Of a DNA stretch of 64,000 bases, positions 692 through 58,136 are shown in pieces. A program made the translations under genes and the position numbers. The stretch covers positions 1-64,000 of the forward strand of contig NZ_JAHBBI010000012.1 of assembly GCF_019331695.1 (NCBI RefSeq). Reading direction: 5' to 3'. Numbering within the stretch: the first letter of the stretch is position 1; every line of letters begins with the position of its first letter. The notes below the pieces were generated by a model. It saw nothing but the letters and a program-made list of their open reading frames with translations, had not been told where the DNA came from and did no database searches. The stretch is from Bifidobacterium pluvialisilvae. Its GTDB lineage: Bacteria > Actinomycetota > Actinomycetes > Actinomycetales > Bifidobacteriaceae.

Positions 692-994
692 TTTGTGGGT
701 CTATCGAGTCGCAACAGCGGTTTTGTGGGTCCGTCCTATTCATTAATAGTGGGTTAATCCGTTCATAAAGAGGTTTGTGGGTCTATCGCATACACGAGGA
801 CGGCGAAAATCGGCTCCTCGTGAACTGATAGACCCACAAATCTAATTTGGCGAGCGGATAGGCCCACGAACCTAATTTGGAGAACGGGCGGACCCACGGA
901 CTCGATTTGGCGAGCCGGTGGACCCACAAACCCGATTAGAGAACGGGACGGACCCACGAATCCAATTTGGAGAACGGATAGACCCACAAACCCG
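692..994. repeat. Convergent repeat array around a hairpin, family A, locus 1
   Basis: Plus-oriented copies of TTTGTGGGTC lie at about 692, 720 and 774. A central hairpin spans 774-840, with the core CGCATACACGAGGAC at 787-801. To its right, inverted copies (GACCCAC) follow at a strict 30-bp period: units begin at 845, 875, 905, 935 and 965 with the frame ATTTGGNGARCGG. The left and right halves face each other, so the whole locus is an imperfect palindrome. Related loci are at 44664 and 57597. Small frames here translate into repeated FVGL/FVGP strings and are not considered genes. Confidence 0.8.
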
Positions 995-44663: not shown

Positions 44664-45180
44664 TTTGTGGGTCTATCTGTTCCCGCGTGGAAAAGTGGGC
44701 CTATCCGTTCGCCGGTTTCGGGGTTTGTGGGTCTGTCCGTTTGTAGGGTCCGGGGTTTGTGGGTCTGCCCGCCCGCCGGGTTCGGTTTGTGGGTCTATCC
44801 ACTCCTGAAAACATGGAAAGTGGGTCTATCCGTCCGTAGGTTTCGGGGTTTGTGGGTCTATCCGTTTGCCAAAAAATGAAAGTGGGTCTACCGCATACAC
44901 GAGGACAGTGTTTTCGGCGTCCTCGTGTATACGGTAGACCCACAAACCCGTTTATGAACGGTTTGGCCCACTCTTCGTGAATGGTCTGGACCCACTAATC
45001 TGCTGTATAGTTGGCCGGGACCCACAATCCTCCTCGTTTGTGATTGGCTGAGCCTGCTAATCCGTCTTGTGGTTGGTCGGATTGACGATTGCGGTCGGCT
45101 TGGCCTGCGATTGCGGCCGATTTGACCTATGACATGGCTGGTTGGTCTGCGATTGCGGCAGGCTGGACCCACTAATCTTT
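44664..45180. repeat. Convergent repeat array around a hairpin, family A, locus 2
   Basis: GTGGGTCT (or GTGGGCCT) occurs at 44667, 44695, 44727, 44759, 44789, 44820, 44852 and 44882, 28-32 bp apart. The central hairpin has 25-bp arms (44882-44906 and 44919-44943, one mismatch) that include the core CGCATACACGAGGAC. To the right the motif is inverted (GACCCAC or near forms near 44937, 44966, 44990, 45019) and becomes degenerate, with a last copy near 45168. It fills the gap between convergent genes. Confidence 0.85.
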
Positions 45181-45185
45181 CCTTT

Positions 45186-45482
45186 GGCTTGGTCGATGAT
45201 GGAGCATGCTGCATATGCTCGGTTTTGCGTCGTGGTCCATCAATTTTGGCCTGTTTTTCATGGATTATGGCGAATTTTGTTGAAAATGTGGCGCAATCCA
45301 TCGGCTGGAGGATATCGGTCATCGAGAAACCGCATGATTGCAACGGTTCTGGATTTCAGGCCGTGATGGTGCGATGGACGGCGTGACAAAACGCCCGATA
45401 TGCGTCGTAGTCCATCGGAATCCAGCTGATTCCCATGGACCACAACACATTCCACCAACACTGCGTCATGGTCCATCGGTGA
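45186..45482. repeat. Convergent repeat locus, family C, locus 2
   Basis: Directly follows family A. Copies of GCGTCGTGGTCCATC-like sequence (near 45227, 45400, 45465) and inverted GATGGACGGCG/CATGGACCAC (near 45372, 45434) surround a dyad with TTTTGTTGAAAA at its centre (45260-45301), comparable to TTTTCGTCGAAAA at locus 1. No gene is visible. Confidence 0.55.
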
Positions 45483-52763: not shown

Positions 52764-52827
52764 AATTTGGTCGATTCATCATAAGGATGAGGATTGTGAT
52801 GTCCTCACGATATGAATCGACCAAATT
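52764..52827. terminator. Long hairpin after the fuconate dehydratase gene
   Basis: Perfect 16-bp arms AATTTGGTCGATTCAT (52764-52779) and ATGAATCGACCAAATT (52812-52827) with GAGGA/TCCTC pairing in the loop. TATCGGGA occurs just left of it and again at about 52846. Confidence 0.7.
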
Positions 52828-53189
52828 TCTGTTTTGTGACCAATTATCGGGACGAATGGGGGAGCTGGCGGGTGAATCCGCGAAAGTCGGTTGTGGTGGA
52901 TTTGCGCGAGAACATGCTCCGAGAGGCATCCGGGGCATCGGGGGAGCAGTCGTGGGAAGCGATAACAATCGCCGGATACGGCCGATGGGCAAAACCGCGG
53001 AGTCGGGCGTCTTCGATGGAGCCAGGGGAAAACCACAGGTAATCGAAATCCGAGCCATCCGTGAGGGTTGGGACAGCGTGTCGCAAGCTGTCGCAATGTG
53101 ACCGCGGAACCATCCATTATTGCGAAAACCTTTTTTGATGCATCGTTTTCCGGTCTGGTTGACGAAGGGATTTTTTATGTTATTATCTT
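52828..53189. other. Gap without a recognisable gene
   Basis: Short frames exist on both strands (for example 52812-53042 plus), but none has a ribosome site or a family pattern. It might be a decayed gene. The right end becomes AT-rich toward the promoter of dehydrogenase 2. Confidence 0.4.
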
Positions 53190-56782: not shown

Positions 56783-57439
56783 ATGACACGGAGCAAGAAG
56801 GATATCGCCTACGATTATCTGCGTCAGCGGATCATAGCGTGCGAACTGAAACCCGGTGATTATCTCGACGAGCAGGAGGTCGCTCAGGCACTGGGCATCA
56901 GTCGTACCCCCGTCCGCGAGGCCGTCAACCGGCTCGCGGAGGAGAAGCTGCTGCAGCTTATGCCACGCAAGGGCGTGATCGTCAGCCAGTTGTCCGTCAA
57001 AGACGCCTTCGACATGCTTGAAGCCAGACTGATGATCGAACCGGAAATGCTGCGCAAGGCGTTTCCGAACCTCGACAGGACGTCGGTGGTCAAATACCGC
57101 GACTATGTGGTCGCCAAGATCGAATCCGACGACACCACCGAGGAGGTCAGTCAGGACTTCGATTTCGAACTCCATATGTATTTCGCGGAGCGGACCGGCA
57201 ACTCCTGCCTCGTCGACATCATGAAGATGCTGATGACGCAGAACCAGCGCGTACGGTCGGTCATGGCGTCGATCCGCGCCGAACGCGTGCGCGACGCGTG
57301 CAGGGAGCATCTGGTGATTCTCAACGCCATCCTTGACGGCGACGTGGACGCCGCGGTCGAGGCAATGCGTGCGCATCAGCGCAGCGCCCTCGAGGACTTC
57401 CAGCAGCATTACCGCAGCCGGCAGGCGTTCTTCATGTAG
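56783..57439 (+). CDS. GntR-family regulator with FCD domain, copy 2
   Basis: 218 residues. Winged helix YLDEQEVAQALGISRTPVRE and FCD domain with FDFELHMYFAE and CREHLVILN, colinear with copy 1 at 50734 (both begin MT-SK-D-AY). TATTAT GCGTAAC T ATG suggests a leaderless promoter. It is placed after dehydrogenase 2 and the MHS transporter and is the likely regulator of that module. Confidence 0.87.
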   Translation: MTRSKKDIAYDYLRQRIIACELKPGDYLDEQEVAQALGISRTPVREAVNRLAEEKLLQLMPRKGVIVSQLSVKDAFDMLEARLMIEPEMLRKAFPNLDRTSVVKYRDYVVAKIESDDTTEEVSQDFDFELHMYFAERTGNSCLVDIMKMLMTQNQRVRSVMASIRAERVRDACREHLVILNAILDGDVDAAVEAMRAHQRSALEDFQQHYRSRQAFFM

Positions 57440-57473
57440 ACGGCGCATCACATGGCGTCGGGTATATGGCATG

Positions 57474-57525
57474 GCGTCAGGTTGGCGTCAGGTTGGCGTC
57501 AGGTTGGCGTCAGGTTGGCGTCAGG
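57474..57525 (+). repeat. 11-bp tandem repeat
   Basis: GTTGGCGTCAG repeated about four and a half times, directly after the second regulator gene, inside a stretch with further GTATATGGCATGGCG copies. Confidence 0.85.
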
Positions 57526-57596
57526 TGTATGGCATGGCGCCAGGTATATGGCATTGCGTCAGGATAGTGCCGGGTATATGGCATGGCGTTATTGGC

Positions 57597-57933
57597 TTTG
57601 TGGGTCTGCCGCGTTGGTTTTGTGGGTCCATACGATCGTCGGAGTTGGTTTTGTGGGTCCGTCCGGTCGCGGAAAAACGAAAGTGGGTCTATCCGTTCAT
57701 GAGGACGGTGTTTTCGGCGTCCTCGTGTATGCGGTAGACCCACAAACCCGTTTATGAACGGTTTGGCCCACGGTTATTGAACAGGGCGGACCCACAAATC
57801 CGCCTCGTGGTCGTCTGGACCCACGAACGTGAACGTAGGGACCCACTAATGTGAACGTCGGGACCCACAAATCCGGGTTGCGATTCCGGGTTGTGATTGT
57901 CCAGACCCACGAATGTGATTGTCCGGACCCACT
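57597..57933. repeat. Convergent repeat array around a hairpin, family A, locus 3
   Basis: Left arm: TTTGTGGGTC at about 57597, 57620, 57649 and AGTGGGTCTATC at 57682. Central hairpin arms 57682-57706 and 57719-57743, the latter containing GTCCTCGTGTATGCG, the exact reverse complement of the shared 15-bp core. Right arm: GACCCAC at about 57737, 57790, 57819, 57840, 57862, 57903 and 57926. A stretch of about 65 bases from the loop rightward (57701-57770) is almost identical to locus 2. Confidence 0.85.
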
Positions 57934-58136
57934 GGCGATGGGCCGACAGGTGTTCTTCATGGAGACGACACCATGGCTCATGGCCTGTGCGTAGGTGGGC
58001 GTCGTGGTCTGTGGCCCGCACCCTGTGGCTGTAGACGGGCGTCGGGTGTCGCGGCCGTGTGCGGTTCCCCTCACACTAGACTGAGAGGGCGGACGTCCGT
58101 TCGTCCGGTGATCTTTCCGAATCTAAGGAGCTGCAC

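Follow-up and report, generated by a model that had tools for sequence, protein, structure and literature searches.

Three described groups of bacterial repeats come closest to the elements considered here. REPINs consist of an inverted conserved pair around a hairpin, show compensatory changes in the inner stem and are extragenic, as described in PMC3116915; their sequences are lineage-specific and are thought to co-evolve with the RAYT enzyme (PMC3116915, PMC8049555). REPs and BIMEs are intergenic palindromes with inverted arrangements and tandem clusters (PMC8266576, PMC3733652). REPs are described as 20-50 nt long with a GTAG-type tetranucleotide, of which GTGG is a known variant in one REP family (PMC3733652); the phyla that this source names for REPs are other ones, and its main text makes no mention of ‘Actinobacteria’ or ‘Bifidobacter’. 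Pneumococcal BOX elements are composite and modular, vary in unit number, are over-represented between convergent genes and have been proposed to be parasitic and non-autonomous, according to the account in PMC3049150. No bifidobacterial repeat of the kind presented here turned up among the papers listed in searches of the open-access literature.

The window, which is the whole stretch of 64,000 nucleotides of Bifidobacterium pluvialisilvae DNA that was analysed, holds three loci at which arrays of the box TTTGTGGGTC point inward at a palindromic core (Table 1). Short hairpin-forming intergenic elements of this family occur by the dozen in many Bifidobacterium genomes. Each is built from a palindromic core of ~66 bp and a directional tail of boxes, the first step of which is 28-30 bp in every box group read, and in the lineage of the window long arrays stand on both sides of the core. 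One predominant box per lineage is common to both core arms and to the arrays, and the elements lie in gaps bordered by one or two gene 3′ ends, almost never in divergent gaps.

The likeness to REPINs lies in the conserved inverted pair and the compensatory inner stem, which are found for the family and are weak in the window's own lineage. The elements differ in having an unbroken stem of up to ~26 bp, in the single boxes arrayed outside the hairpin at steps of 22-34 bp, and in the absence of Y1_Tnp from the eight carriers of the genus. Specifically, a scan of the nine genus genomes found RAYT (Y1_Tnp, PF01797) in one, namely G003, which has no match to our structured model. A REP with its RAYT was rejected on the absence of PF01797 from the genus carriers, and the element, although it works in the manner of a REPIN, is not counted among REPINs. 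The boxes that were read also lack the GTAG or CGTC tag of REPINs and REPs, beginning instead with GTGG, CTGG or TTGG, although this lack is not absolute because GTGG is known as a GTAG variant. REPs and BIMEs resemble the family as intergenic palindromes that are inverted and clustered, and a previous sequence-only reading of the window was right in seeing a repeated palindromic element flanked by facing arrays and in setting the loci apart from ordinary REPs. With BOX the family shares a tandem unit in variable number, a modular build and a convergent bias, whereas the BOX unit lies between two ends (boxA-boxB(n)-boxC) and the present one lies outside the palindrome and faces it; BOX belongs to another phylum and is set apart here by unit order, not by sequence. 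MITEs are likewise short, non-coding and dispersed, with inverted arms, but no general target-site duplication was seen here and no autonomous partner was found near the copies (58 neighbour proteins). CRISPR had also been dismissed, correctly by layout, as the units are degenerate and lie in two facing orientations.

Table 1. Features of the palindrome-and-box elements in the window (R1, sequence-only profile; R2, structured model; folds are for single-stranded DNA)
Feature	Position	Strand	Details
Locus 1 B-arm	692..773	(-)	boxes 28, 24, 30 bp apart going out from the core; exact TTTGTGGGTC at 692 and 722
Locus 1 palindromic core	774..840	(-)	R1 match 722-838, 102 bits (copy among the sequences used in building R1); R2 match 721-840, 101.9 bits; fold -21.8 kcal/mol, z -8.0
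Locus 1 A-arm	841..994	(-)	5 boxes, 30-bp steps
Locus 2 A-arm	44664..44878	(+)	box steps 28-32 bp
Locus 2 core	44879..44946	(+)	near-perfect palindrome, 51-bp form; R2 112.5 bits (core among the copies used in building R2); fold -27.4 kcal/mol, z -10.7
Locus 2 B-arm	44947..45031	(+)	boxes decay in the direction of 45180
Fourth family member, lone palindrome	52764..52829	(+)	box TTTGGTCGATTC, G002-type; R2 34.7 bits, E 1.6e-9 (absent from the R2 building set); fold z -7.0
Locus 3 A-arm	57597..57679	(+)	box steps 22, 31, 30 bp
Locus 3 core	57680..57746	(+)	R2 113.1 bits (core among the copies used in building R2); fold -22.1 kcal/mol, z -8.1
Locus 3 B-arm	57747..57933	(+)	steps 28, 24, 29, 22 bp, wider further out

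Within the window, exact TTTGTGGGTC occurs 18 times, each time inside one of the three loci, and the 15-mer CGCATACACGAGGAC is found without mismatch at 787-801 (+), 44892-44906 (+) and 57719-57733 (-), with only one further copy in the genome (C6:29971). The coordinates and motifs given in the sequence-only reading, the identity of the 15-mer at all three loci and the inward facing of the arrays on a palindromic core were thus confirmed. Locus 1 lies in reverse orientation, with its B-arm on the window's left. The GC content of the three 120-bp matches (0.46-0.52) is lower than that of the window (0.63), though they are not AT-rich. The lone palindrome at 52764-52829, with its G002-type box, indicates that one genome can hold two box types. 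Other repeats were observed around the loci: the end of a GntR-type gene (GGCAGGCGTTCTTCATGTAGACGGCG) reappears, altered, just right of the locus 3 array (window 57400-57990); next to locus 2, at 45226-45479, TGCGTCRTRGTCCATCGG is present four times with up to 3 mismatches and in both orientations, in a region that is 75.6% alike to the DNA beside element L093 of B. primatium; and the gaps that hold elements contain degenerate tandem runs at 361-680 (GGGATGGCGTGG...) and 57481-57530 (GGCGTCAGGTT...).

What had been taken for three loci is really a dispersed family, of which they make up 3 of the 36 clusters with at least three boxes (31 in a first set and 5 more) in stretches fetched from the window genome, in addition to the fourth window member. 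These stretches were taken around motif sites and at further places of the genome (G000; 2.66 Mb, 21 contigs) and amount to 33 sources and 271 kb including the window. Genome-wide, TTTGTGGGTCTATC with up to one mismatch has 103 sites (1 for a reversed control) and the core pattern, at the same tolerance, 38 (0 for the control). A consensus scan of the fetched stretches gave at least 40 cores, which is a lower bound because the scan overlooks some (e.g. L062 and the first core of L071). Across 40 copies, column conservation extends over ~180 bp and falls to background level beyond. The box at +28 is kept in 38 of 58 cores of G000, G004 and G005, and a 120-bp alignment of the cores that have it contains 21 invariant columns, some of them inside the box used for selection.

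Oriented by the core, boxes of the A side stand mostly 30-32 bp apart, while those of the B side follow first steps of 28, 24 and 29/30 bp and afterwards mostly 22 bp, so that the spacing of about 30 bp claimed from the letters alone holds for the A-arm and not for the B-arm. The companion claim that all motifs face the same side of the DNA is at best approximate for the A-arm, where 30 bp correspond to 2.86 turns at 10.5 bp per turn and the drift is 17-51 degrees per unit; it fails for the B-arm, because steps of 22, 24, 28 and 30 bp are out of helical phase (phases 34 to 309 degrees). Heptamers with up to one mismatch, at 40-500 bp from a core, point inward in 414 of 480 cases and outward in 66. 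For 120 pairs of exact heptamers separated by two periods, GTGGGTC (up to one mismatch) fills the position halfway in 83, against 1 of 120 at control offsets; with that position located via the flanking bases the figure is 64 of 120, and the adjoining spacers are 44% identical. The heptamer is kept while the spacers drift, and it is therefore the box that is conserved, not the spacer.

The gene setting was read with our own simple gene caller. Overlap with predicted genes stays within 60 bp for all 31 clusters of the first set; the gap is convergent for 13, tandem for 17 and divergent for none, and one cluster has a missing neighbour. Of 27 element gaps 0 are divergent, while for the remaining gaps of these stretches the figure is 20 of 79 (p 0.0016). 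Among 58 proteins neighbouring the clusters of the first set (a few of them second neighbours) none belongs to a transposase Pfam family, and for 7 no Pfam family was found. Single cores fold well, and well-paired and poorly paired cores occur side by side. Further features of the same stretches include a 342-aa ORF without a Pfam family between two full arrays (L069, 3698-4726), the flanks of which have some likeness to DNA beside elements in G001, G007 and G068; a second dispersed repeat with the 11-mer CTCAGGATGAC (26 copies in 271 kb, in L053-L077 and the window); and CATCCTGAGCG, found 19 times in 239 kb of this genome and at most once in each of the samples from five relatives.

Distribution was assessed with two models, the R1 profile and the structured R2 model. 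R1 matches 18 of 189 family genomes at E <= 0.01, more weakly outside the window genome, and 20 matches that were read have an equal layout and different boxes. R2 matches 35 of 189 Bifidobacteriaceae genomes at E <= 0.01; in 24 of these the best E is <= 1e-6, namely in 8 of the 9 genomes of the genus and 16 in genus g5, with 11 of the 24 having supplied sequences to R2 (so that they match partly by construction) and 13 not. The repeat is therefore not confined to the window or its genome, which contradicts the absence elsewhere that would have refuted the sequence-only reading. The other 11 family genomes match more weakly (best E 2.5e-4 to 0.0088) and are not counted as members. Copy numbers from R2 are lower bounds, with no more than 19 candidates scored per genome. 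In a sample of 396 genomes from the order, 8 reach E <= 0.001. Half of these belong to the family; the 4 matches outside Bifidobacteriaceae are not convincing, since they cover only 38-60 of 122 positions. Close species differ in the number of motif sites (103 in G000, 17 in G004 and 14 in G005; G004 and G005 are 96.3% identical). Samples of other genomes hold hairpin-like repeats as well, such as CCCCTCAGTC, with 22 copies across 156 kb from G002 and 13 across 159 kb from G001, and CCTCATCAGTC, with 18 copies across 398 kb from G006; lone palindromes at L186 8787-8862, L080 and L217 14844 lie behind a tRNA gene and a terminator-like hairpin (the L217 tRNA being a reading of the sequence).

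While the palindrome and the first tail step are common to the family, the box is lineage-specific and changes together in core and tail, with GTGGGTC, CTGGGTA, GTGGGCAT, CTGGGCAT, TTGGCC and TTTGGTC as lineage boxes. Boxes were read in 19 of the 24 genomes from the best-scoring copies, in seven of them from one copy only. G000, G004 and G005 have TTTGTGGGTC; G001, G007 and G008 mostly TCTGGGTATA; G031, G068, G026 and G058 GTGGGCAT; G074, G089, G095, G037 and G069 TTCTGGGCATA; G076 TTCTGGGCC; G024 GTGGGGATT; G002 has TTTGGTCG, TTTGGTAAA and relatives; and G006 has TTGGCC, besides lone palindromes with TTGGCAAATCC. Judged by the final base of the box word, the two boxes of a core, left and right, match in 73 of 74 elements, and of 148 tail places 110 agree with the core, 6 disagree and 32 are without a box. 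Counted by group within 260 bp of 73 elements, the own box points inward/outward 24/0 times in group A (3 elements), 85/9 in B (27), 54/4 in E (18) and 41/0 in F (14); groups C (13/10, 6 elements), whose box is nearly self-complementary, and D (3/0, 5 elements) are little informative. Boxes of foreign groups mostly number 0-4 per group, except that the short D word comes up as often as 8 times inward and 11 times outward around the elements of B. On the right arm, groups B to F all begin with a step of 28-30 bp; the next one measures 22-24 bp in B, C and F and 34 bp in E, and the window copies have 28 and then 24 bp. Left arms have inward boxes as well (13 for B, 14 for E, 13 for F), which means that the facing layout is not limited to the lineage of the window. 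There are exceptions to the box rule, as G006 has two box subfamilies, G002 is mixed and G000 has at least one member with a G002 box. G000 and G002 themselves, which share 92.8% of 3191 positions in an alignment of four gene fragments, have different predominant boxes and some sites in common. In samples L189, L190, L192, L194, L200, L202, L203 and L205 of G006, lone palindromes of type TTGGCAAATCCAAGCTTGAAGA occur without arrays; several are near-perfect, and they form a second subfamily within one genome.

The sequence-only reading had called the hairpin conserved, and this stands at the level of the family, where it is borne out by covariation, and only weakly in the window species and the two relatives that share its box. 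In 24 diverse cores, 81.1% of positions are paired, compared with 65.7% in shuffles, and covariation is 0.414 against 0.177 +/- 0.016 (0 of 500 shuffles as high; slid controls at most 0.129). Both sides vary in 20 of 26 pairs, which 3 of 500 shuffles reach, and further pair types number 43 against 37 (14 of 500 shuffles). RNAalifold pairs the left box with the +28 box in the alignment of these 24 cores, because all boxes are alike. Relatedness among copies can push up the result against shuffles; slid controls preserve it and reach at most 0.098 in two sets drawn from within groups. The 27 cores of G001, G007 and G008 are 86.3% paired (81.1% in shuffles) with a covariation of 0.216 (0.121; 0 of 500), and the 18 cores (17 distinct) of G031, G068, G026 and G058 are 92.1% paired (83.8%) with 0.312 (0.164; 0 of 500). 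In both sets the box pairs are nearly invariant, and the inner stem differs between copies yet stays paired, G-U pairs included. The 58 cores of G000, G004 and G005 are 73.4% paired where shuffles give 72.1% (2 of 500 reach the real value), with a covariation of 0.127 against 0.111 (3 of 500) and one slid control higher, at 0.133; RNAalifold retains four outer pairs. Pairing thus supports the palindrome weakly in the box group of the window, whose core acts for the most part like conserved sequence.

With the cores masked, the flanks of 123 elements were compared with one another. Window locus 2 and G002 L258 lie between the same gene pair, the gap measuring ~900 bp here and ~130 bp there, where a lone TTTGGTCG palindrome is followed by one tail box; further cases with two matching flanks are L065 with G002 L313 (524 and 112 bp) and L070 with G006 L192 (1114 and 142 bp). 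Arrays at one site thus differ in length. A consistent flank match to an element of the window genome was seen for 10 of 47 genus elements, or 8 of 47 without L234 and L282, which match only via the possibly repeated ORF type of L069. By rough estimate 1.9 are expected, or 3.8 if half of the gaps can hold elements, which gives P of 3e-5 or 0.006 for ten and 0.0008 or 0.04 for eight; the sharing may also reflect a common insertion preference. At locus 3, the distance between gene matches is ~682 bp in G000 and 152, 105 and 120 bp in G002, G004 and G005. Several other elements are in the same place in G004 or G005, which suggests that movement is old or rare. No general target-site duplication was seen among the clusters: only locus 3 (46, the score of the recurring GntR-type gene end) and L153 (54) exceed the null maximum of 32, and the flanking-repeat score of L153 comes from the array units themselves. 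No clean insertion edge was seen, because alignment breaks down in the intergenic part of the empty site.

Several ideas were discarded. A phage or plasmid origin found no blastn match; 8 viral pattern matches and 13 of 17 genome_contigs matches have no palindrome around them and are probably fortuitous, the remaining 4 coming from B. saimiriisciurei and B. primatium. Near-identical stretches of G004 and G005 are not a mobile island, since the identity continues (94.5-99.4% over 11-19 kb) and the species are close. Loss of the family from G002 was refuted by at least 17 R2 matches, five of which were read and carry other boxes, and the notion that G006 is full of TTTGGCCTGACCGTTC arrays failed with 4 sites against 2 in the control. 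De novo k-mer arrays gave nothing comparable in samples of G006, G001 and G002, though R2 later found the family there. Large target-site duplications are not general, and the ORF between the L069 twin arrays, considered as an autonomous copy, has no Pfam family. Uptake signals are scattered, whereas the exact window boxes sit in arrays only, which speaks against a DNA-uptake sequence. Such sequences are named in the discussion of pneumococcal repeats (PMC3049150).

In our judgement there is about an even chance that the elements are a REPIN/BOX-like, non-autonomous, dispersed, non-coding palindromic repeat whose box is read by a putative protein; we infer recognition, mobility, the route of growth and the protein. 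A trans-acting DNA-binding protein (transposase-like or processing single-stranded DNA, with no detected Y1 RAYT) would recognise box and hairpin and may have spread the element as a non-autonomous mobile repeat. Arrays would have grown at standing sites via local duplication of the binding unit, extra boxes being extra binding sites, and the box would drift jointly with its protein. The gap sizes at locus 2 support growth at standing sites, and those at locus 3 amount to presence and absence between close relatives and favour the mobile-repeat reading, against which stand the lack of a transposase family among the 58 neighbouring proteins, of Y1_Tnp in the genus carriers and of a general duplication or clean insertion edge, the places kept between species, the weak pairing in the window's lineage and the exceptions to the box rule. 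The matches across the family, the covariation of the core, the concordant and inward-facing boxes, the heptamer conserved amid drifting spacers and the dearth of divergent gaps also count in favour of this reading, of which the protein-binding platform suggested in the sequence-only reading forms a part. A real rival, rather unlikely in our estimate, is a platform kept by the host, in which a chromosomal protein (nucleoid, segregation or regulatory) would bind the boxes, arrays would be selected for dosage or looping and the box would co-evolve with the host protein. Such a platform accords with a heptamer kept among near-random spacers, with boxes that change in concert and with sites common to genomes with different boxes, more often than expected (10, or 8 without the L069 ORF-type matches, against ~1.9 to 3.8). 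It sits badly with site numbers that vary widely among close species (103, 17, 14), a site that can be empty in relatives (locus 3), the absence of any match at E <= 0.01 from one genus member and 154 of 189 family genomes, and B-arm steps that are out of helical phase.

That the loci form a long structured RNA, as had also been suggested from the letters, was not upheld: an Rfam 15 covariance-model scan of the window and 16 loci at gathering score returned tRNAs only, and orientation to the upstream gene is inconsistent overall. We regard as decidedly unlikely a related 3′-UTR element, whose transcribed hairpins would end transcription or protect the mRNA ends of upstream, often convergent, genes. 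The scarcity of divergent gaps (0 of 27 here, 2 of 47 elsewhere) and stem covariation with G-U pairs fit it, as does the RNA fold of locus 2 (z -8.5), though inverted arrays of a single motif are bound to pair. Orientation in tandem gaps leans to the sense of the upstream gene outside G000 (21 of 29, p 0.024), but to the opposite in G000 (6 same, 14 opposite, p 0.12), and is unbiased when pooled (27 and 22, p 0.57), though a palindrome acts on both strands; the relatives' count starts from 72 elements, from which one overlapping a predicted gene and 24 without a called neighbour were dropped. This inconsistency makes an RNA role less likely, pairing is weak in the window's own lineage, and there is no obvious part for boxes arrayed at fixed steps to play in an RNA. 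It is very unlikely, in turn, that the elements have no function and are the neutral residue of an old repeat, kept palindromic through template-switch correction and lengthened by slippage: variable array length at one site, the coexistence of well-paired and poorly paired cores and the other tandem noise in element gaps would suit this, yet it leaves unexplained the intact boxes amid drifting spacers, the single predominant box per lineage and the first tail step common across lineages.

Beyond the mobile-repeat reading itself, it is possible, though we remain doubtful, that the elements embody a two-part code, in which a structural hairpin is combined with a genome-wide ‘address box’ that would be rewritten in concert at standing sites as lineages split, with a fast-evolving, non-RAYT putative DNA-binding reader, the boxes having multiplied into facing arrays in one lineage. 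If true, this would be a new element class with its own co-evolving reader. The loci of the window are also an unusual case in which arrays of putative binding sites, facing one another, have grown round a hairpin. The recognition box has been switched naturally between close species (e.g. G000 and G002), and the putative reader protein could therefore be traced through DNA-binding genes that change with the box. Finding this reader would test how such repeats spread or persist.
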